The position numbers and the translations under genes are program-made. A stretch of DNA of 35,183 nt from Funneliformis mosseae (taxonomy: Eukaryota > Glomeromycota > Glomeromycetes > Glomerales > Glomeraceae): NCBI GenBank assembly GCA_910592005.1, contig CAJVPP010000352.1, positions 1-35,183 on the forward strand, in the 5' to 3' direction. Positions 3,260-29,500 of this stretch are shown here, one piece after another (positions within the stretch are counted from its first letter, which is position 1; the number at the start of each line of letters is the position of its first letter). Below the pieces are notes generated by a model. The model saw nothing but the letters and a program-made list of their open reading frames with translations, did not search any database and was not told where the DNA came from.

Positions 3260-4520
3260 ATGACTGGTAATTAAGAAGCGTTTTTATATGTTTAATTAAT
3301 TAACAAATTGAAAAGATTTTTAATTGTAATATATTATAATAATTATACAGATTATAAAGAGGAACAAGAACAAGAATTAGAGGTGTTAAAATCGATTTAT
3401 CCAGATGAATTCGAGGGTAAATTTCAATCAATTATGAAAGAATTAATGTTTCTATTCTATGTAATTACATGTCTTGAATATTCAATTGTCTGTTTAATAG
3501 AAATTGCGGAAGGGGAATTTCGTATTCGACTTGAACCCGAAGAACCAGATAGTACAGCACCGCGTAAGGTTTTTATATCATTTTTATTATTATTTTTTTT
3601 ATTTTTATCTTTTAATCACTTCTATATATTAAAAAAAATTTTTTGTTTAAACAATTCTGACTTATTCGTTCGATTATAACAGTGACTTTAGCTTTACATA
3701 TAAAATATACACCAACTTATCCGGAAGAAGTTCCGGAAATATCAATCGATACACTAGATGGATCTATTGAGGCTGATGAAACTGAGAAATTACATTCAGA
3801 ACTGATGAAAGAGGTATACCAATATATGTTTGTATATTATATTTGTTTTGAAAGATTTCTAAAAATTTTTATTTTTCACGGAATAAAATTTATTAACCTT
3901 TTTCTTTATGAAATTCAAGGCACAAAGTTCATTAGGAATGGCGATGGTATTCACATTATCATCATTGCTTAAAGATTTGCTAACAACATTTGTGATGGAA
4001 AGAAATAATCGGAAAAAGAAAGACGAAGAAGATCGAATTAGAAGAGAAATTGAGGTAAATAAACATTCGAGTTTAACGTCATGGTAAACATACCTTTCTT
4101 AAGATTATTCCATGATTTATAGATAGAACAAGCCAAATTTCAGGGAACAAAGGTCACAGTTGCATCATTTTTGGAATGGAAGGAAATGTTTGATAAAAAA
4201 TTAGCGGATAAGGAGAAGGCTTCTAAAAATTTATTAGCTATAAAGAAAGAAGAAGCCAAAAAATTAAAACTTACAGGTAAATCAAGAATTTTTTTTTTTT
4301 TTTTTAAACAAATTTTTTCTAATTAGTTTTTTTTTTTTTATTCCTTTTAGGACGACAATTATTTGAACAAGATGAATCTCTTGCTAATTCAGATATGAAG
4401 TATATCGAAGAGGGAGATGTTACAGTGGACGTTTCATTATTTGAAAGGGAGGTTGATATGAGCGATGAAGATGAGGAAGATACTAGTGTACTTGATCTGG
4501 TCAGGAATGACACCGATTGA
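3260..4520 (+). CDS. GIR2: RWD-domain protein, RWDD1/Gir2 homologue
   Basis: Seven exons join in frame to 241 aa: 3260-3266, 3351-3416, 3501-3563, 3683-3813, 3920-4054, 4123-4276 and 4351-4520. The first exon has only 7 nt (ATGACTG) and is needed to give the family N-terminus MTDYKEEQEQELEVLKSIYP. Human RWDD1 starts MTDYGEEQ and is of nearly the same length (243 aa as I recall). The RWD domain covers about residues 1-115 and has both hallmarks, SIYPDEF (17-23) and YPEEVPEI (58-65). A charged helix rich in Glu, Arg and Lys follows, then GTKVTVASFLEWKEMF, GRQLFEQDE and an acidic tail, the same order as in RWDD1. Yeast Gir2 binds the GTPase Rbg2 and Gcn1 and acts on translating ribosomes and the general amino-acid control response; this role is inferred here. 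An E-box palindrome lies upstream, and the gene converges on FAHD1 with 116 bp between stops. Confidence 0.93.
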
Positions 4521-4636
4521 TTTATTTACTTTATTTATTTATAAGGCAAATCGTTATTTAATTGGTTTGATATTTAATAGATTAATTATTTTTAAAGATA
4601 AATAATTTGTTTGAAGAATTTAAATTTAAATAATCA

Positions 4637-5844
4637 TTATTGTTTATATTCAAATAATCCAACTCTTTCCACAACAGAAAATTTAATTGTAGATATATTT
4701 TTATTATCAGCATTTAATCCTGCAGTAATTACTTGACCTGGAAGAATAGGTCCAACACCTGAAGGTGTACCTATAAATAATAAAAAAAAAAATTTAAAAT
4801 GTTTTACAAGATACTTTTAATAACGTTTGAAGGAAATAAAATATTTCTTTACCCGTTAAAATCAAATCACCCTTTTCTAGGGTCATGATTGAGCTTATAT
4901 ATTCGATTAATGTAGGAATCTTGAATATCATGTCTTTCGTTACACCATTTTGTTTAATTTCTTCATTTAACTAATCATAATAATAAAAATCATGAGAATT
5001 GGCACTTTCATATTAATTTTGTATTAGAAAATATCTTAAGTTGTACCTTAAGCCATAAATTTACATTATGAGGATCTTTGATTTCAGATTTTGGAATAAA
5101 TTCTCTAAAAAAAAATTAAGTTAATATTTATTGTACTTTTAAATTAATGCAAAGTGTCCTCGACTTACCCGACCGGAGTAAATGTATCAAAACCTTTCGC
5201 TGCACTCCACGGTAACCCATTTTTTTTTGCTGCATCCTACAATTTACAGGTACAATCTAAATAAAGTATAGGAAGGTTGAATTATAACGTGAATATTTAA
5301 CAATTACTTGGAGATTACGCGCTGTCATATCAATACCAAGTGCGTATCCTAAATAGAATTTTATTTTAAAAATTGTCAACACATTATTATTAGCAAGGAA
5401 CAAGGTTTACGCGTCTCGATTACCTTCTACATAATCCATTGCTTCGGATTTTCGAATATCTCTTCCTCCTTTACCAATTACTACACCTAATTCGACTAAT
5501 GGTATAAAAAAGCTCAATAATATAGTCAGGTATATAAATAAGGTTAGATAATTATGTACAACATACCTTCATGATGAACAACACAACCTTTTGGTATTTC
5601 TACTTCACCTGATAAAAGGTAAGAGGAGGTTGGTTTAAGAAAGAAGAATGGAGTTGTTGGAACTGCATTACCGAGTTCCTTTGCATGCTCACTTTATTAT
5701 ATTTTATTTTATTTTTATTTATTTAAACAAATAATATATGAACAAGGATAATGAGAGCATAACAATCAATTATTGCGGTTAATACCTAAAATTACGACCA
5801 ATCGCAATGATTTTTTTTCCAAGTTTTGTAAAGTTTTGCATCAT
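4637..5844 (-). CDS. FAHD1: FAHD1-like acylpyruvase / fumarylacetoacetate hydrolase family
   Basis: Eight exons on the minus strand join in frame to 224 aa: 5844-5786, 5691-5567, 5495-5424, 5348-5308, 5236-5169, 5104-5047, 4970-4853 and 4770-4637. Family landmarks appear in order: [25 protein letters not shown]-like [28 protein letters not shown] with the HxExE metal-binding set, [47 protein letters not shown] and [15 protein letters not shown]1 (yeast Fmp41) is mitochondrial, needs Mg2+ and hydrolyses acylpyruvates and decarboxylates oxaloacetate. The total length equals that of human FAHD1. The start is the first of two adjacent ATGs. I see no long targeting peptide ahead of the domain. The gene is divergent from the coiled-coil gene at 6302. 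Confidence 0.93.
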
Positions 5845-6301
5845 GAATTTTTAAAGAGAAAGTTTTTACTCGCGTTACGCGTTGATCATCCTTTTGATTC
5901 TTTTATTCTTTTTTTTCAGGTGTAATACCACATTTATTATCTTGTGAAACATTTGATGATGATAATGATTAACATGTCTTCTGATATTTTAGCAACTTCT
6001 ACTAAATTCAAAATCGGACTTAAAATCGGTCTTTGGGGGATGATCATTGAAGATCGGACGGATCCTACACGTGTCGTAACATGGTATTAACCTTATTTGG
6101 AATATAAGATATATTTGGGGGTCGCGTGGAAGAACAACGTAATTCTTTCTTCATATGATTGATTAAAATGTTAGGGATAAGTTACACGGATCTTGCAATC
6201 GCCATAAAAGTTGCATATATATCGTTATACAGTTTAAACATTTTCTTATGGATTTATTTCATGTTCGTATTTTGAACTTGCTTTTTATAATATTCGTTTA
6301 A
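5845..6301. promoter_or_regulatory. Shared divergent promoter region with CACGTG
   Basis: This 457-bp gap separates the starts of the FAHD1-like gene (-) and the coiled-coil gene (+). It has higher GC than other spacers and no open frame of note. A CACGTG hexamer sits at 6068-6073. Two copies of the motif gatcgga/gatcatt-like sequence lie at about 6040-6065. A bidirectional promoter is inferred from gene orientation. Confidence 0.45.
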
Positions 6302-9432: not shown

Positions 9433-11280
9433 ATGCTATCCGAAAGTCAATTTGATATTTTAGATAGTTTAGATTTATATAGTAACAATAATGAAAAACC
9501 TTTCGGTCATTGCCCAGGCTGCAAAAAAACTTGCTATGCTCTAGCTTGGTGTGATGCATGCGATCGAAAAGCACTTGTTGATAAATTTGATACATGGTCC
9601 AAGGAAAATAAAAATAAAGATATATTATTATTAATTCAGGAATCTCAAAGATGGGCTACGGATTATTACAATTATTTGGAATTCATCCCTTACAATCATT
9701 TTAAAGATATTAAATATATAGAAGAAGGTGGTTTCGAAGCAATTCCTAAGGCGACTTGGCTTGATGGAAGTAGAATCGCAAATGGTTTCGGAGAAATTTC
9801 TAAGGCGACTTGGAATGATGGCATTAGAATCGTAAAAAAAGTTGATGGAACTTGGATAAAAACTCGTAGTGAGCCATGTGCCATTTTATTAAAGGAGATT
9901 AAGGAATCAGGAAATATTGATCAAGACTACATTAATGAGGTGATTTTCAATATTTATCCAATCTTAAATCTTTCAATTATATTCTTAGTATTATTATTTA
10001 TTTGTTAGTTAAAGGCCTATATCGCGTTTCACCGGTCAGATAATTGCAGATATTATGGAATTACGCAAAACCCAAATACAAAGAATTTCTCATTAATAAT
10101 GGATTATCCACATTTCGGTTCTTGCTCAAATTGTAACAAAGAATTCCATGCCCCTGCTTGGTGCAATACATGCGATCGAAAAGCACTTATTGATAAATTT
10201 GATATGTGGTCGTCAGGAAATGAAAATATTGATCTATTAATTCAGGTATCCCAAAGATTGGCTCCGAATTATGAAAATTACTTGGAATTCATTCCTTACG
10301 ACCATTTTAAGAATATTAAATTTATAAAAAAAGGTGGTTTCGGAGAAGTTTCTAAGGCGACTTGGATTGATGGAATTAGAATCACAAAGAAAAAGTTTTT
10401 AAATCAATTGAAAAAGAATAATGATATTTGGTTCAAAACTCGTAGTAAACCATATGTCGTTTCATTAAAAGAGATAAAGGAATCAGAAAATATTGATCAA
10501 GACTACATTAATAAGGTAATCTTTCATATTCAACTAATCTTTAAAAATTGGTGCAATATATTGATTCAATTATTCTTTTTAGGTATTATCATTTATTTGT
10601 AATTTAAAAGCCGAATTTGATTTTTACAGTTCAAATAGTTGCAGATATTATGGAATCACGCAAAACCCAAATACAAAGAATTTCTTATTAGTAATGGATT
10701 TAGATATTGACGAAAATTATCCAAATTTCGGTACTTGCCCAAGATGCGAAAATGAATTCAATGCCCCTGCTTGGTGCGATACATGCGATCGAAAAGAACT
10801 TAATGATAAATTTAATACATGGACAACTGGAAATGACAATATAAATCTATTAATTCGGGAATCTCAAAGTTCGGCTCCGGATTATTATAATTATTTGGAA
10901 TTCATTCATTATGATCGTTTTAAAGATATTGAAAAAATAGCAGAAGGTGGTTTCGGTGTAGTTTTTAAGGCGACTTGGCTTGATGGCATTAGAATTGCAA
11001 AAAAACAAGATGATGGGATTTGGATCAAAACTCGTAGCGAACCATGTACCGTTGCATTAAAGGAGATTAATCGTTCAGAACATGTTGATCAAGAATACCT
11101 TAATGAGGTAACTTTTCATATGTATCTTTATATTGTATTATTTTTCAATTATATTCTTAGGCATTATTATATTTTATCAGTTAAGGTCCAATATCGAGTT
11201 TCACAGGTCAGATATTTGGATAGTTTGCAGATATTATGGAATCGCACAAAACCCAAATACAAAGAATTACATATTAGTAA
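9433..11280 (+). repeat. Tandem triplication of a ~612-bp kinase 5' module
   Basis: The first knuckle Cys codon recurs at 9511, 10123 and 10736, giving a period of about 612 bp. Each unit spans exon 1 (knuckle plus N-lobe), its intron, and the start of exon 2 up to the codons for NPNTKN. The first two units end in taatggat, where the LVM-E-Y of a normal exon 2 (attagtaatggaatat, 11274-11289) switches to the M-D start of the next exon 1. The shared ATGGA at the two places is a natural crossover site. Copies have diverged by substitutions and small indels, so the event is not recent. Confidence 0.85.
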
Positions 11281-11915
11281 TGGAATATCTACCAAAAGGT
11301 GATATTAAAAAGGAATTATTTGTTCAAGGGAAAGACCGATTGAAGTGGCAGAAAAAACTTCAGTATTTGTATTTTATTTGTAACGGCATACGTGGCATTC
11401 ATCAGCTTAACTACGTACATGGTGATATTCATTGTGGGAATATACTTTTAAAATATACCAGTGATATCTGCATCACAGATCTTGGTTTGTCTCGACCTGC
11501 AAATTCTAAAGAAGCATCTCAAAATAAATCATCTGATGATCCTCCTGCGGGAAATATTCCATACTTAGCACCAGAGTTATTAAAGAAATATCCCAAATCA
11601 AAAGCATCTGATATTTATGCAATTGGTATTCTAATGACTGAATTTGCCTCGCATGATCGTGCCTTTGAAAATTACAATAGCACTGATCTCAAAATTGACA
11701 TTTACCGCGGTGAACGACCTAAATTCCCTCCTGAGACGCCAAACTGCTATGTCGAATTAATGAAAGAGTGTCTAGATGATGATCCAAACAAACGTCCGAC
11801 CGCCGAGAAATTAGTGAAATCTATTTCAGGATGGCTCAAATCTGATTGGAAATCAAAATCCAATCCATTTAATATTGCTGATAAGCAATGGAGTCGCAAT
11901 GTATCTAAAGGTTAA
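9433..11915 (+). CDS. Three-headed kinase: triplicated zinc-knuckle/N-lobe module plus one kinase C-lobe
   Basis: Four exons join with all junctions in phase 0 to one 757-aa protein: 9433-9939, 10009-10515, 10583-11107 and 11181-11915. Each of the first three exons carries a CxxC...WCxxC knuckle, a conserved linker (NYLEFIPYxHFKxI), a Gly-loop (GGFGEVSKATW in copy 2, GGFGVVFKATW in copy 3) and a beta-3 Lys (SLKEI, ALKEI). Exon 4 supplies the rest of the kinase: YVHGDIHCGNIL (catalytic D595), ITDLGLSRP (DLG at 613-615), YLAPEL and the SDIYAIGILMTEF helix. The third copy with exon 4 alone would be a normal-size 382-aa kinase starting at 10694, with K123, D220 and APE 268-270. So either one long protein is made or copies 1 and 2 are relics and translation starts at 10694. 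The open frame through both fusion points favours the long form. Kinase activity looks possible for the last copy; substrate unknown. Confidence 0.7.
9730..9837 (+). repeat. 54-bp in-frame duplication of the Gly-loop in copy 1
   Basis: Bases 9730-9783 and 9784-9837 are adjacent 54-bp copies. They encode GFEAIPKATWLDGSRIAN and GFGEISKATWNDGIRIVK. Copy 1 therefore has two successive Gly-loop strands before its beta-3 Lys, which should disturb a normal ATP pocket. The frame is preserved. Confidence 0.85.
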
Positions 11916-12049: not shown

Positions 12050-13949
12050 TTATTGTCTTTCATAATTGAGATATAGAGTGTTAAGATCTCTAGAAACTTG
12101 TTTAATACTGGGTCGATCTTCTTGTTTTAAGGAGCCACAACTATCGATTATATTTTTAAACTTTAGAGGCGTATCATCGCCAATTTTGCCTGGATTTTTA
12201 CCAGTTTGCAATTGTTCCGGTAAAATTTCTAATAAATTTTCGGTTGAAATATTCTCAAATGGTTTTTTTCTTGAAGCAATTTCCCAAAGCAATACTGAAA
12301 AACTGAAAAAAAATTGAACCCCTAATTAGTGTATTTATTAATAAAATATTGACTTCGGCATTCTTATATTTACCTATACATATCACAATTTTTACACCAT
12401 ATATGGGTTCCGCCTTTAAATCGTTCTATTGGATAATACCTATTTTAAAAACAAGATAATTCTTATTAAATATCAAAACTTATATAATGAGAATATGGAA
12501 GTGTTTTCCATAGAAAGAAAACAATATTTTATAAAAAAAAGGACTACTTCATAAGTCTATATGTCATTCCAACAACCTGATAATTCTTTTCTATAGAAAA
12601 CACCATAATAATGTTGCGTATAAAGATTACCGCATTCCATCTTGGTCAGATAAAGGTCGAGTTCCTTCGAAAGTAAACTTAGCTTGCTCAAATCCAGTTA
12701 GCTTAGCATTTTTGTCTTTATCAATTAAGACATTTATACTAGTATTGCAAAGAAAAAAATAGTTAATTAATATTTAAATGTTTTAATAATCTTAGGAATC
12801 TTAAGGCAAATAAATTAATTAATTACCTACGAAGATTATGATGTAGTATTTGACTATTATGACAGAATTGAATCGCGGAAGCAATTTGTGTTGAAAATTT
12901 AATGCGTTCGGACCAGGGAATTACAATATCTTCTTGAAGATACAGTTCGAGGTTCCCGTATTCAGCCCATTCGGTTACAATATACATATTTCCGCATGAA
13001 GCAAATGTTCCTTTGCTATAAGGATAAAAAAGAACAATATAACATTGTAGATCTTTCATCCAGATAATTTTTCGTGAAAAATTGGCAGGCATTCGAGCCC
13101 TATTTAACATAGAAGAATACTTACAATCTGATAATCGAATTACATGCACTAAGTTTCAAATGATATGTAGCTGCTCTATTAACCTTTTCTACTTCATTTT
13201 GATTTTGTGGATATTTAACTTTTATTATAGCAACTGCTTCCCCATTATAATATTTTTTTTGAACTCGGCCACTTTTACCTCGAATTACCTTGTCGTTATC
13301 ATCAGGATCCTCGATGTCTGTGTCACTAAGTATAATTAATTTCACATCTTTGGGATTTGGATCAAACCCTCTATTTAAGTAAGCCAAGCTCATCAAAGAA
13401 TCCACTTTATCGCTTATAGTACCTATAATACTGTACATTTCCATGTCCATTTCAAAATGAAATTCTTTCATTGCATCTTTAAGTTTCTTTAAAAGTTCCC
13501 TATAAACTTCATTCATCTGTGTGCATAAAGTAAAGTTTGATTTAAAACAATCTCTTTAAGGGACGGTCATTTTAAATGACAATACTCACGTTAGAAGCTT
13601 TTACAAAAGAAAGAAGCTTCTTTTGAATTTTATTTTTATTATCCGGACCTTCTTTATTCACCATGTCTTGGATATATAGATCAATATATTTTAAAACTTC
13701 AATGTAATTTTTGTATGCTCGATTATATTTTCTTTCATCAAGTTTATGACCGCTCAGTTGTTTTTGCGCTTCGCAGACTTTCATCTTAATGTCTTCCTGA
13801 ATTTCTTCATTTTCTATTTGAAATTCGAGTTGCACTTGAATTTGTTCCACAATTGCAGAAGCCGTTTGTAATAATGGAACATTTTTCCCAATGTCTAGAA
13901 TCCTTTTGAATATCGAGCATCCCATTTTCAATTTCATACCATTGACCAT
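12050..13949 (-). CDS. MLKL-like protein: N-terminal helical bundle plus pseudokinase
   Basis: Six exons join in frame to 455 aa: 13949-13590, 13516-13125, 13015-12827, 12738-12631, 12439-12374 and 12302-12050. An in-frame stop lies just upstream of the start ATG. Residues 1-150 are all helical in pattern, with segments such as LLQTASAIVEQIQVQLEF, YKNYIEVLKYIDLYI and LLSFVKASN-MNEVYRELLKK, like the N-terminal bundle of MLKL/HeLo-type domains. Residues 195-455 form a kinase fold: RGKSGRVQKKYYNGEAVAII with K219, MYIVTEWAEYGNLELYL, ILHHNLRSINVLI, KLTGFEQAKF, and SFSVLLWEIASRKKPFE. The HRD aspartate is N311 (HHN), DFG is GFE (329-331) and APE is PIE (353-355), so catalysis is very unlikely. Residue N316 of the loop and K219 remain. 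A signalling or membrane-acting pseudokinase is inferred. The gene converges on the three-headed kinase, 134 bp apart. Confidence 0.85.
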
Positions 13950-16847: not shown

Positions 16848-18572
16848 TTACGAAAAACACGACATTTTCTTAAATATTTTTGAGATTTTTGATTTAAATT
16901 TCTTAAATCCTTTTTGTTTTTTGAACTCTTCGTATTCTTTATCCATTCTAGCTATTGTATCCGGAGATATTGGTTCGCTAAATACATAAAAGAAAATTGG
17001 TTTTAAGTATTATAAAAGATTTATAGATATAAGTATAGAAGATATATTATTTACCTTAAATTAGCGTCTTGATATTTGGATATCGGAACTTGTAATGGTA
17101 ATGGTTTTTCGGCCATTGAATCTTGATTTACTTCGTCTTGTGAATCTTGTGAATTTTGTGAAGAAATTTGGTGTAGGTAATCATGAGATTTCCTTGATTC
17201 TTCAGATGACGCTCTTATATCTAAAAATAAATAAATAAATTTATTTAATTTTTTTTTTTTTTTCATTCGTTTAATTTAAAAATTCTATATGACAATTACC
17301 AGCAATAATCACGCTATTTCCAACTTTAACGGGATCATCGTATGGGATACCATCTAATTGATCACAAATTTGTTCAATATTCGGTCTCAAGTTGGGTTCA
17401 TGATCCCAACATTGTTGATATAACTGTATATATTCTTCAGAAGTGTTTGGGACGGGTTGTTCGCGGGTTTTTCTGACCATTATGGCCATTGTAAGTATAA
17501 CTTGGCTTCCAGATTTGCCAAATGGTGGTTTACAACTAGATATCTCCCACAAGATTACGCCTAAGCTATAAATGTCTGAACGTTGGTCAGGTTTATGTTT
17601 CATGTCTCCCATAACTTGTGGGTCAACGTATGGTATCGTGGAAAGTATTGCGCTATTTAATGATGATGATGATGATGTTTCGTCATCTTCAAAACCGAAT
17701 AATCCCGGGTCTCTGATAACCGCTTTGCCGTCGTCAATAAAAACACTTTGTGCATGCTAAATATAATAATTAAATGATAAATATTCGGTTTGGTAAAATG
17801 AGATACGGCAAAAAAAAAAAAAAAAAACTAACCAAATCTCCATGAACAAATCCTGATCGATGTAAATGTCTGATTCCTTGAGCGATGTCTTTAGCTAAAT
17901 TCAACTTTTTGAACCATTCTAAATTTGGGTGCCGAGCCAAATATTCTCTTAGAGTACCATCGTTAGGATGTTGTATTACAAGTATGGCGCTTTTATCTGA
18001 TGGATCTAAAAGGATTTTTTTTTTTTGTCGAAATATTAATCAAACCATAATGTTTTTTTTTCTCACATATATGCATAAAAGGATGGTGCATACCTTCGGA
18101 TACTCCGAGTAATTGTATTATATTTTCACAGTTCTGATTCAGTGACGCACGTCGAATCTATTTAGCATCAAAGATTAGAAGATTTACAATTAGTTTTTTT
18201 AAAAAAATTTTTTATTTTCTCGCAATGAGAAAAAGACGTGCACAGCGGTATAAAATGATTGTGGTCAGGGGATTTTACCTCTTCAATCAATTTTTTATGG
18301 TGGTCTTCAATACTATATCCGGGGACGGATTTTAAGAAAACGGGACATAATTTTTCTTTCCATACGGCTTTTCTCACATTATCACCATATAAATCACTTT
18401 TTATTTCGCTAACGTTGGCAAATTCGTTGAAGTTAATAAACTCAACATTCATTTCGAGAGCAATTTCTTCAATTGCATTTGAATAAGATTGTTGTAATTT
18501 CAAGGATAATTCATTACTTTTTAATAATAATGAATTTGAGATATTTGTGGATACATTTATTACTTGTGACAT
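16848..18572 (-). CDS. Divergent kinase-like protein with polybasic C-terminus
   Basis: Six exons join in frame to 427 aa: 18572-18279, 18157-18094, 18005-17833, 17756-17300, 17220-17055 and 16977-16848. The kinase fold runs from about 45 to 320. Visible parts are a degenerate Gly-loop (KSDLYGDNVRKAVWKEK), VFLKS with K81, ENIIQLLGVSE, SAILVIQHPNDGTLREYL, GFVHGDLHAQSVFI, AVIRDPGLF, IPYVDPQV, SDIYSLGVILWEISSCKPPF and a PNLRPNIEQIC end. Catalytic D176 is present, but the loop Asn five residues later is S181. DFG is DPG (193-195) and APE is DPQ. Activity is therefore doubtful. Five Ser codons (TCA repeats) lie in the activation segment. The tail has a Ser/Gln/Asp-rich linker, then a Lys-rich helix KFKSKISKIFKKMSCFS ending near a Cys, which could bind acidic membrane or be acylated. 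Start choice: the MSQ methionine; an in-frame upstream Met would add a Phe-rich decapeptide. Confidence 0.85.
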
Positions 18573-23570: not shown

Positions 23571-25763
23571 ATGATCAATAATAATAATGATTCTTCAACG
23601 AATGATAATGATGAACTAAATACCGATAAAGAAATCCCAAAATCCTTGATCATCAGCATCGATGAAAGGAGTTCAAGAGATTCAAAAAAGATAACTGCAG
23701 AATTGACGAACGTAATTGAGGAAAAGGAAGTTAATGAGAATTCTGAAGATAATCCATTTAATTGGCCCAAAAGGAAGAAATGGTTAACTTTGGTGGTACT
23801 TTCATGTGGTGCCATTATCTCTCCCATTTCATGCTTGTAAGTCATCTGATAATATTATGTAAGGAGATTCCCATTATTTTAACCACGCGACTTTTTTGAT
23901 CGAAAATAAAATAGTTTGTTTTATCCCGCAGTATTGGAAGTTCGAAAACAATTGCATACAACTAGCATATTGACAAACGCGTCAGGTGAGTACATAAGAA
24001 AAATTTTAAAAAAGATTATTATTATTTTTATTATTTTTATTATTTTTAATATCAATATACATTTCCTTTTTTTTATGTAAAGTCTCAATATTTATCATTT
24101 TTCAGGGCATTGGAGTAAGTAAAGCGCACAAATACTTTTGAAATCATTTATCAAAAATGAAGTTAATTTTTGTCTTAATTTAGCCATTGGGATGTGCAGC
24201 CTATTCTGATTCCAGACAGACTCGTAGACATGTTTATATATTTTCCCTAATTCTCTTCATCGTAACATCAGTGATATGTGCGATAACAAACAATATTTGG
24301 TTGTTGATTTTAATTAGAAGTGTTCAAGCATGCGGTTCCAGTGCTTTGCATGCAATCGGGCCTACTACAATAAGTGATATGTTTGTTGCCGAGGGTATAT
24401 TTTTTGTTTTTATATTTTTTTTTTTTTCTTTCTTTTTTTTTTTTGACTTTTTATTTTTTTTTTCAAAAAAAAAAAAAAAAGCGCGTCAAAATTCAATACT
24501 TGACTGCGCCATACTTTGCACGATTCATTAGAACTTGGTAACGCATTCGGATTCTTTTATTTATTCCCAATTTTTGGACCTTTAATTGGACCGGTTATCG
24601 GAGGTTATGTTACAGAATATCTTGGCTGGAGATGGTAAGTTAAAAACGTAATCGTACGTTATTGAAACGGGGAATATTTATATCGATCGAAGACCCGTTC
24701 AAACCTTAACACGTCAGACCACTTAAATTTAAATTTATGTTTCTTTCTTTTTTTTTTTTAGGATATTTTGGTTAATGGCAATCATGGGAGTTATAGTATT
24801 AATATTTATATACTTTTTCGTTCCTGAAACTTATCCGAAACGAAAATCCATACCTCACCCCACCACAATCAACACGACCACCACCTCCGCCTCTTCCCCA
24901 AATTCCTCCAAGAGAAAATTTATAAATCCATTTGCTCCTTTAACCCTCTTTCGATATCCAAATTTATCCATAGTGACACTATATATATCGATATTACTTT
25001 CATTTATCTACATGCAAGGATCATTAATACCGATCGAATTCAGCAAGGTCTATAACTTAACCGCCTCGAAAATTGGTTTGGTGTTTTTATCTCCCGCATT
25101 GGGTTATATGCTTGGTAGTGTAATCGGTGGTAAATATACTGATTACGTTTTGAGAAAGGCAAAACGAATCGCTTTAATCGCTCAACAAAAGGAAATCGAA
25201 AAAATAATTGAAAAAGGTGAGAATGATACGATTATGTTGGAATCGGTTCAGGTTGAACCTGAGATAAGAATTCACGGTATTTGGATAGGTGTCATCATTA
25301 TACCTACAAGTTTTTTGGCATACGGTTGGTTATTAGAAAATCGAATTTCAATAATATTTCCATTAATCTTGATGTTCCTTGGTAAAAGATTTTTTTTATT
25401 TTATTTAAAGTTTTATTTTTTTTTTTATCATTGATTCTTATTCCCTTTCATTTTTTTTTTTTTTTTTTTTTTTTTACAGGAGGATTTGGACAAATCTTGG
25501 TATATACAACAATGTTTACTTACCTGGTGGAATCATTTCCAACTCAATCCGCTTCAATTGCTGCGAATTCAAATTTTTCAAGGCAATTGGTCGCTGGGTT
25601 ATTATCTCTGTTCTCGGTACCTATATATGAAGCGTTAGGTGTTGGATGGACTTTTAGTTTGGTAGCGTTTTTGAAAATTATTGGAACTTTATTGGTCATT
25701 GTCGTAATATTTAAAGGTAAACAATGGAGGTTAAAATTTAAACAAGATTTTAATTTAAATTAG
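23571..25763 (+). CDS. MFS transporter, DHA1-type drug/polyamine exporter
   Basis: Seven exons join in frame to 528 aa: 23571-23836, 23915-23985, 24083-24114, 24184-24394, 24532-24634, 24762-25381 and 25480-25763. A hydrophilic N-terminus of about 65 residues leads to DNPFNWPKRKKW, typical before TM1 in fungal DHA1 carriers. Next come FLFYPAVLEVRKQLHTTSIL, SIFIIFQGIGPLGCAAYSDS with the motif-A-like YSDSRQTRRHVYIF, RSVQACGSSALHAIGPTTIS, and the antiporter motif C GPLIGPVIGGYVTEYLGWRW. A cytosolic loop of about 45 residues separates the two six-helix halves. The second half has GYMLGSVIGGKYTDYVLRKA and TYLVESFPTQSASIAANSNF. All twelve spans appear present, so the gene looks intact. It would sit in the plasma or vacuole membrane and expel small molecules by proton antiport; the substrate cannot be told. 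Introns carry long T runs. Confidence 0.9.
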
Positions 25764-26587: not shown

Positions 26588-29500
26588 TTATTGATATTGG
26601 GGGAACACGGATGTCAGGTTTCCCCTACGATCTAACTTTGTCGATGAAGATGAGGTCGATACGGTACTATTTCCTCCGTATGGAGCTACTTCCATGAATT
26701 GTGATAATTTGGGATTGAGGTAAGAATTCCGAAATTTCATGTTGCTGTCCCCTAAAATGATGGTGTGACGTTTAGAGTAATGACTATGTTGATCTAATTC
26801 ATACTCGCTAATATCATCCGATGCGGTGGTTTTTCCATCATATTCGTAATCCCATTCACGTTCCTTGTCATAATAATCGTAACCACCGGGTAAAGTCATC
26901 GAAGAACGACTCCCGTGTGAAGGTATGCCAGCAAGTGAACTAGTTATGCTTTTTCTGCTTGCCTCGGATCTAAAATATAATGACGATGGAGATCTTTGAG
27001 GAAATCTTTCCGAGAATGAATATCCAGCAAAGCATTGCTGTAAGCTATCATCCATCGTTTCCTGTTTGTGTATTGACAATTTGGGTGACATGCTAACGAA
27101 TGTATCATCGAAATTTTGAAGATCTGTCTCGTGTTCAATTGTTGGGATGTAAGGGGCGCGGATACGCTTATGGTAAACATTATCCCAATTAACGTAACTA
27201 AAATATGCATGCGCTTTGATTTCCATTGAGCCGGCTGGTCCGCATCCAAGGCGGTTCATTGGATTACGTTGTAATAACTGAATCGAAAAATAAGTTTGAA
27301 TAAATTAATTTATAATTCGTATTCGTATTTCTAATTGCTGAATTTCAAATAATGCCTGCACTTACTCCACGCAATACGTCCATGGACTCAAACATCATGC
27401 CGTCTGGAAATATAAGCTCATCTTCTAATACGCGTTGATACATCATGTTCTGATCGTCGGACCAGAATGGTGTCTGCATAAAAAATATTCATATATATAT
27501 ATATTGATAGGTTAAAAACGTATTTCACAAGATAATGACTTTATTCGAATAACACCTACGATTCCGGTCATCATTTCGTAAAGCAAAGTTCCGAGACTCC
27601 ACCAATCAACCGGGTAGCTGTATTCTTCGGCTCGTATTATTTCTGGAGCCTATTAATTAATCGAAAGGATTATTACCTTTGTGCATACATCATGTATATA
27701 ACGAGTTCATTATATGTTTTCTGTCTGCTTACCAAATATTCAGCCGTTCCGCAGAATGTACTTGTCTTTTGCCAGTTTGGTTCGAATTGTTTTGATAAGC
27801 CAAAATCCGTGAGCACTATGTGTCCATCCCGACCAATTAGAATGTTTTCCGGTTTTAGGTCACTAAAGATATAAAGGATAAGTAAACTAGGCTAAAGAAG
27901 TAAAATGTCAAATGTCAAGAATTTTTTCATTAAAATACGTACCGATATACTATGCCCAGACGATGCAATTCTTCTATCCCTAAAACAATTTCTGCTGCAT
28001 AGAACAGGCATCTTGCGTCATCAAATTTGTGCCATTTGGCAAGCTGAGTCGCAATGTCACCTCCAGGAAAGTAATCCAACACAAGGAAAAGCTGGTTGGT
28101 GTCTTGGAATGATTCGTGTAACTTAATCAGGAATGGATGTGATATCGTTGCAATTGAAGCAAGGATGTCCCTTTCCGTTTTGGTATGTTCGACTTCTTGC
28201 CGAAATACAACCCATTCCTTGGAAATTGCTTTTAGCGCAAATAGTTTGTTAACATGCTTCTCACGGGATAGAAACACCTAAGCGTGAATGATGATAATTT
28301 TATATAAGATCTCGCTGCTGAAAAACAACACATACAATACATATATGTAGATCATATATATAGATTTATTATATGACGGGCATAAAAAAAAAAAAATTAT
28401 ATATATATTACCTTCCCCATGCACCCTTTGCCAAGAACTTTTATTAAATCGTAATCATCGATTGTCGCTTTATAACACGATGATCGCAGGACCCTTGACC
28501 TTGATCGGCGCAATGGTGACGGTAAATTTTCGGATCTCGCGTTTAATGCCGGATCTTTCCATCTTATGCTATCCTTATCATTCTTGACGCTGAGGAAATC
28601 TTTAAGCACAGAAGAATGTTTCAAGTTGATGTCGGATAATACTTTTCTCAAGTAGCTTTCGAGTTTTTCCGCGGTAGATTTTCGGAAAAAGAAATGCTTT
28701 GGTAAGAGGAAAGCCCTTCGACGGTCATCTAACGAAGGCAAAGTCGGGCGTGGTTTTGGGAATTCTTGTCGTAGCTATTACGAGATCAGGATCGAAGGGG
28801 CAAGGTTTTAGAATTAGGTCCGAGGAAAAAAAAAAGATTCAACCTAACTAAAAATGTAACACAAAACCTTTTGATCGAATTCGACAAATTCCGTAATAGT
28901 TCTAGTGATGCTCAATATTTGAAGTTTATCTTCAATGGTTACTATGAATACCTATATTTATAGTAATTAAAATAAAAACGAACCAAGTTGATTCGTCCAT
29001 AATTAATAAAGAATTCACCAATAGGATAACAACTGTTATAGATCCACAATGGTGGCACGATTGCGTAACCGAACCATTTGCATGATCAACCCTCATAACC
29101 CTTATTAAAAAAAAAAGGAAAGAGCTTTCCCCTTTTAAATTTTTTTTTATTTGTGAAACGGAAAAAACTTACATCCGGTGAACTTGATTTAGACTTCTTT
29201 GGTGTGTTGGAACTCTTAGTGCCATTACTTATGTTACTAAAGCTTAGAACAAATTTTTTGCTTCCTTTTTTTCGAAGTTGAGTGAGGCCATTTGAATTAT
29301 TCGAGGTTACGGTGATTGTACTTTCAGTTGTGGCGGTTGTGGGTATTTGAGAGGTTGCTTTTTGATTTGATTGCTCTTGGACGGCTATTCTCAAGTTTTC
29401 TTGATCCGTAACGGTGAAGGGAAACTCTATCCTACTGTTTCTACTCGTTACACTCGTCTTTGTCATGATGTGAGAAAGTACATTTCCGACCACGCTTCCA

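Follow-up and report, generated by a model that had tools for sequence, protein, structure and literature searches.

A three-headed gene of Funneliformis mosseae and an apparently undescribed class of multi-headed kinases in arbuscular mycorrhizal fungi

We describe here a gene of Funneliformis mosseae that lies at 9433..11915 (+) in a stretch of 35,183 nucleotides (contig CAJVPP010000352.1; this whole stretch is referred to as the window). The gene carries three consecutive copies of a unit that we call a head, each made of a four-cysteine module and a kinase N-lobe, followed by a single kinase C-lobe. One gene with one putative full-length product, in which non-catalytic pseudo-N-lobe arms precede a single active TK/TKL-like kinase, is the explanation that we consider probable. 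Computed results behind it are the frame, the layout, its recurrence in relatives, the loss of the glycine loop upstream in the class, one N-lobe fold prediction and signs of constraint on heads 1 and 2. By sequence comparison, the gene belongs to a large class of such kinases in arbuscular mycorrhizal fungi that has apparently not been described before.

The four exons (507, 507, 525 and 735 bases, each divisible by 3) join in phase 0 and form one open frame of 757 amino acids without a stop, as the preliminary description of this DNA had proposed; the three GT..AG introns measure 69, 67 and 73 bases. Within the head exons, each of the other two forward frames contains 8-27 stops and the reading frame contains none. 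The annotated F. mosseae product, P0001, matches the window exons and begins at the ATG at 9433. Each head runs from a CX2C-x9-CX2C motif through a short helical stretch and the N-lobe strands to helix aC, is interrupted by an intron, and continues with strands b4-b5 to the hinge. As direct repeats, the three copies follow one another mostly at intervals of 606-613 bp; their DNA identity is 60-85% depending on the segment. An assembly error was set aside as the source of the array because the copies are just 60-64% identical in protein. The features are as follows; exons are given by the open frame, introns by their GT..AG borders, and motifs and junctions by the sequence.

9433..9939 (+): exon 1, with the start codon (shared by P0001) and head 1 (four-cysteine module, stalk, N-lobe strands to aC)
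9502..9561 (+): four-cysteine module of head 1, CX2C-x9-CX2C
9727..9735 (+): GGF glycine loop of head 1, followed by E
9729..9836 (+): 54-bp tandem duplication in the glycine-loop/b2 region of head 1, from repeat analysis; present in the F. caledonium and F. geosporum proteins
9940..10008 (+): intron 1, phase 0, 69 bp
10009..10515 (+): exon 2, with the end of head 1 (YYGITQNPNTKNFSLIM, b4-b5), the junction and head 2 to aC
10099..10104 (+): junction 1, hinge Met-Asp of the next head; possible internal ATG
10114..10173 (+): four-cysteine module of head 2
10333..10341 (+): GGF glycine loop of head 2
10516..10582 (+): intron 2, phase 0, 67 bp; the downstream VLSFI is also found in the F. caledonium and F. 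geosporum proteins
10583..11107 (+): exon 3, with the end of head 2, the junction and head 3 to aC
10694..10699 (+): junction 2, hinge Met-Asp; alternative start put forward in the preliminary description
10727..10786 (+): four-cysteine module of head 3
10946..10954 (+): GGF glycine loop of head 3
11108..11180 (+): intron 3, phase 0, 73 bp
11181..11915 (+): exon 4, with the end of head 3 (b4-b5, hinge) and the sole C-lobe, from Pfam PF07714
11418..11426 (+): catalytic loop HGD
11478..11486 (+): DLG at the DFG position

The sole kinase match in Pfam is PF07714 at residues 454-727, starting in exon 3 (E 5e-44), and the scan did not recognise heads 1 and 2. Head 3 together with the C-lobe has the motifs of a full TK/TKL-like kinase of the PF07714 family (GGFG, ALK, LNE, HGD, DLG and APE). 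GGF is present in all three heads and the b3 Lys also in heads 1 and 2; in head 2 the aC Glu is replaced by Lys, and in head 1 the glycine-loop region is duplicated. That duplication, noticed before as a 54-bp repeat, is confirmed in copy 1 and corresponds to 18 amino acids in the protein. The tandem copies had been described as zinc knuckle plus N-lobe, of which the repeats stand but the knuckle does not: a CCHC zinc knuckle is spaced CX2CX4HX4C, and all three heads instead have the ribbon-like four-cysteine motif CX2C-x9-CX2C. Pfam offers for this putative zinc module only weak matches below threshold, Stc1 and Zn_ribbon_6.

The order of heads and C-lobe recurs widely. Relatives were 300 proteins, those listed among 72, 611 and 307 matches from three protein searches, and heads were called with a profile built from 12 seed heads in two iteration rounds. 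A single C-lobe combined with at least two full heads is found in 132 of the 300 fetched relatives, and the C-lobe follows every head in 133 of 133 cases (132 relatives and the window). These counts are lower bounds and no census, because only listed matches were fetched and the searches with 72 and 611 matches scored only candidates sharing most words. Neighbouring heads are separated by a median of 2 residues (561 pairs of the fetched set). The window array shares with the class two or more heads before one C-lobe and a head-head junction at the kinase hinge. Among the matches listed, members come mainly from Rhizophagus clarus, R. irregularis, R. diaphanus, Glomus cerebriforme, Gigaspora rosea and Acaulospora morrowiae. 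The suggestion of a one-off new kinase layout is therefore unsupported, since a broad class is found in Glomeromycotina. Before the glycine loop was counted, eleven proteins in which two heads are more than 97% identical to each other were excluded as possible model or assembly duplicates. This left 636 of 669 upstream heads, 112 of 117 last heads and 126 proteins with 2 to 13 heads and one C-lobe. The Diversispora cases with a single C-lobe are among those dropped, including the two-headed models P0260, P0264 and P0300, whose copies are nearly identical and probably are assembly or model duplicates. After exclusion, 38 proteins (P0192, P0193, P0195, P0197-P0199, P0204, P0205 and others) have heads without a recognised C-lobe; such head-only proteins might be truncated, since several are marked partial.

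F. mosseae itself holds further arrays of eight heads (C2094), five (C794), three (C282) and two (C83), each with one C-lobe downstream. At C794 an intronless frame of 576 codons runs through three complete heads into the beginning of the fourth, and at C282 an intronless frame of 441 codons runs through two heads into the beginning of the third. Since several heads share one intronless frame, the predicted multi-headed reading of these two loci is independent of splicing. The claim that three heads precede one C-lobe within a single gene thus has counterparts both in the relatives and in intronless arrays of the same genome. The C794 frame (4385-6112) has zero Pfam matches above the cut-off. 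Own-genome searches, in which 150 candidates were scored each, gave possible further two-headed loci on C346 and C982.

Upstream and last heads of the class differ in the glycine loop. By alignment column, GGF occurs in 0 of 636 upstream heads (2 by plain text) and in 108 of 112 last heads. Despite the loss of the loop, upstream heads of the class retain the N-lobe core; 57% of them have the aC Glu, and 28% the b3 Ala by column percentages computed before the exclusion of the 11 proteins. For one upstream head, structure prediction gives a kinase N-lobe fold. P0205, which was also folded alone, has a last head with GGF and is probably a truncated model, and whole-protein Foldseek matches are mostly kinases and carry little information on single heads. 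Where all four cysteine columns hold letters, the four cysteines are present in 411 of 419 upstream, 78 of 82 last and 40 of 42 single heads; with gaps scored as losses the values by column are 65%, 70% and 91%, respectively. A plain pattern search was unsuccessful on 278 of the heads examined. The loop pattern also bears on the earlier proposal of extra nucleotide-sensing sites in the upstream heads. In the window, GGF and the b3 Lys are indeed retained in heads 1 and 2, but practically all upstream heads of the class have lost the loop and many the accompanying residues, and an N-lobe without C-lobe misses half of the known nucleotide site. We regard nucleotide sensing as very improbable. 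For the window we infer that the loop may be starting to erode, given head 2 without aC Glu and the duplicated loop region of head 1; head 2 of F. geosporum carries HGF at the glycine-loop position.

The preservation of the frame through several fusions and introns had been presented as unlikely by chance. This argument turns out weaker than claimed. The junctions LIM-D (10099) and LVM-D (10694) both sit at the kinase hinge Met and are homologous to each other; therefore a single in-phase fusion, with a chance of 1/3, followed by growth of the array suffices to explain both. Two independent in-frame fusions were set aside, as one homologous junction explains the pair. In the four other F. mosseae arrays, a stop-free GT..AG join of 60-90 bp is possible in phase 0 for 13 of 13 intron-bearing units and in phase 1 or 2 for 0 of 13; the donor directly follows Asn-Glu in 8 of the 13, as it does in window introns 1 and 3. 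We read the window intron as the phase-0 intron of the family, and with this phase being family-wide, keeping the frame becomes easier. A neutral simulation left no stop with a probability of 0.11-0.14 at 40 substitutions and 0.02-0.03 at 80, and the open frame on its own is therefore only moderate evidence.

Relatives of the locus in other species help to date it. All three annotated models include the C-lobe. P0001 has pieces of all three heads, with parts skipped, F. caledonium P0002 has head 1 and parts of head 2, and F. geosporum P0003 has parts of each of the three heads; P0002 and P0003 have the 18-residue duplication in head 1 in common. R. irregularis P0004 has a single head, is 74% identical over 51% of the query, and has an N-terminus (MLSE..FDILDSLD) similar to copy 1. 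When 103 heads were placed in a midpoint-rooted tree, in which several deep nodes are weakly supported, the window heads, head 1 of F. caledonium, head 2 of F. geosporum and P0004 form one clade with support 1.0, separate from the remaining arrays. Because of this clade and the shared heads, the window array is placed before F. mosseae, F. caledonium and F. geosporum, and its origin is probably separate from that of the arrays in Gigaspora, in Rhizophagus and elsewhere in F. mosseae. Head 3 groups with P0004 inside the clade (support 0.987), for which reason R. irregularis may have lost heads; the single-headed P0004 is likely near the ancestral state.

Several results weigh against a three-headed product with maintained upstream arms. 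The annotated models P0001-P0003 splice the heads differently and partly skip them, and the window departs from the class in that GGF is kept in heads 1 and 2. Within the class, a gap falls on at least one cysteine column in 217 of 636 upstream heads, partly at cut ends, and the first C282 head is without its first two cysteines; the 300 proteins include 39 in which two or more heads come without a C-lobe and 11 with two C-lobe matches. The ratio of nonsynonymous to synonymous substitution rates (dN/dS) between the window copies is 0.62-0.77, with a bootstrap interval that exceeds 1 for two of three pairs and reaches 0.99 for the third, and codon-position counts of the copies lack a third-position excess. 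C282 head pairs give a dN/dS of 0.63-0.75, with intervals beyond 1. In the comparison with F. caledonium, 10 of 138 aligned residues are different in head 1 and 2 of 194 in the C-lobe.

Differing gene models are what would be expected if any of the donors at 9939, 10515 and 11107 could be joined to the acceptor at 11181, so that the locus gives rise to alternative single-headed kinases and not to one three-headed protein. This is the main rival explanation. All joins are phase 0 with symmetrical internal exons, the joins 9939-11181 and 10515-11181 restore the order of head and C-lobe, the models of all three Funneliformis species skip head parts, and GGF in each window head is expected if each can serve as catalytic N-lobe. 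Against such switching, the heads of C794 and C282 are fused without introns and hence cannot be switched, upstream heads elsewhere are without the loop and would yield dead kinases, and head 2 of the window is without the aC Glu. In addition, exons 2 and 3 open with the retained b4-b5 of the preceding head, which is useful only if the exons are read serially. Intronless arrays and loop loss oppose switching for the class, not decisively for the window locus, and we consider it unlikely there.

The rate data in turn could point to a relic, in which only head 3 and the C-lobe are used from the in-frame ATG at 10694 and heads 1 and 2 are decaying partial upstream duplicates. A between-copy dN/dS not much below 1 and the faster evolution of head 1 relative to the C-lobe in the comparison with F. 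caledonium agree with it. The comparison of dN/dS among the three copies, proposed in the preliminary description as a check, counts against constraint on heads 1 and 2, with wide intervals. The position of the changes speaks for constraint. At columns conserved at >=0.85 in upstream heads, head 1 has 3 changes in 31 columns against 35 in 111 elsewhere (p 0.010), head 2 has 2 in 31 against 39 in 111 (p 0.0009) and head 3 has 2 in 29 against 23 in 100 (p 0.04). Setting the threshold to 0.75 and 0.80 gives p values of 0.029 and 0.025, respectively, in head 1 and of 0.22 and 0.11 in head 3; in head 2, p is <=0.0001 at both. Head 1 of F. caledonium was left out of this test, as an insertion misaligned columns 110-112. 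Substitutions in heads 1 and 2 thus shun family-conserved columns, in line with the earlier view that copies 1 and 2 are probably not dead. Heads of F. geosporum are conserved about as well as its C-lobe (79, 80 and 74% similarity to the window for the heads, 80% for the C-lobe), and elsewhere in F. mosseae dN/dS between heads is 0.30-0.41 (C794) and 0.16-0.63 (C2094). The copies are moreover free of stops, and their exon lengths differ by multiples of 3, whereas the introns measure 69, 67 and 73 bases; the model annotated in F. mosseae begins at 9433. Taken together, constraint on heads 1 and 2 appears weak to moderate, and a relic is in our view quite improbable.

The preferred explanation, non-catalytic arms before one active kinase, could have come about as follows. 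An ancestral single-headed kinase resembling P0004 would have gained heads by in-phase tandem duplication of a unit reaching from just past the N-terminus to the kinase hinge. The whole gene would be translated as one chain, in which the active kinase consists of head 3 and the C-lobe, and heads 1 and 2 are retained as putative zinc-module/pseudo-N-lobe arms without catalytic function. Elsewhere, non-catalytic kinase domains set the activity of kinase units, and it seems plausible that heads 1 and 2 bind partners or contact the kinase unit and so position it or regulate its activity. For the class at large we hold a further idea to be possible, not probable: strings of 1 to 12 loop-less heads might work as decoy N-lobes or as recognition arms that have diversified, competing or co-operating for the sole C-lobe. 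The arrays would have arisen more than once by hinge-to-N-terminus duplication and would form a repertoire with which plant, bacterial or nuclear partners are sensed, loosely resembling the tandem kinase decoys of plants.

The nearest known arrangements share some of these traits. In JAK, JH2 is a complete two-lobed pseudokinase before the active kinase; this pair likewise places a non-catalytic kinase-like unit ahead of an active one, but the upstream heads described here are without a C-lobe. JAK chains are among the Foldseek structure-search matches. P0004 shares N-terminus and clade with the window heads and differs in having one head. In the plant tandem kinase Pm57, according to the part of the account consulted, an inactive copy lies next to an active copy and is considered as a possible decoy, and duplicated kinase pieces are joined in one chain as in the window (PMC11153570). 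Plant tandem kinases repeat kinase domains, whereas here N-lobe and zinc module are repeated, up to 13 heads with a C-lobe; with its single C-lobe, the window gene does not have the two or more complete kinase domains of the plant type. Among the matches listed in the open-access literature we found no description of a tandem repeat layout of half kinases, and nothing on Funneliformis kinases.

The significance lies in how expanded kinases are read. An expansion of PF07714 kinases in arbuscular mycorrhizal fungi has been described (PMC6123716, PMC8647823), and in R. irregularis the kinase domain has been reported to be the most frequent motif among expanded genes (PMC6123716). These kinases belong to the same fungal group and have the same C-lobe family; the accounts, in the sections available, treat copy number only and leave repeated heads unmentioned (PMC6123716, PMC8647823). 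If the multi-headed proteins are made, expanded kinases would so far have been read mainly by their C-lobe. In the proteins scanned, upstream heads were not recognised by Pfam, which leaves stretches rich in heads unnamed or gives them names that appear spurious. In P0086 and P0192, head repeats are assigned LINES_C, ILVD_EDD_N and MlrA_C above the Pfam cut-off, apparently spuriously. Because the loop is kept in the last head and lost upstream, a direct test of pseudo-N-lobe function is possible.

Several other frames were seen in the window. Minus-strand open frames lie beside the array at 12823-13949 (-) and 17271-17612 (-), and kinase-like motifs occur in two minus-strand frames, ILHHN at 12823-13149 and SDIYSLGVILWEISS at 17271-17612. 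Open frames at 24187-25763 (+) resemble a major facilitator transporter, and kinase-like gene pieces at 27930-28741 (-) resemble what we take to be an AGC-type kinase.
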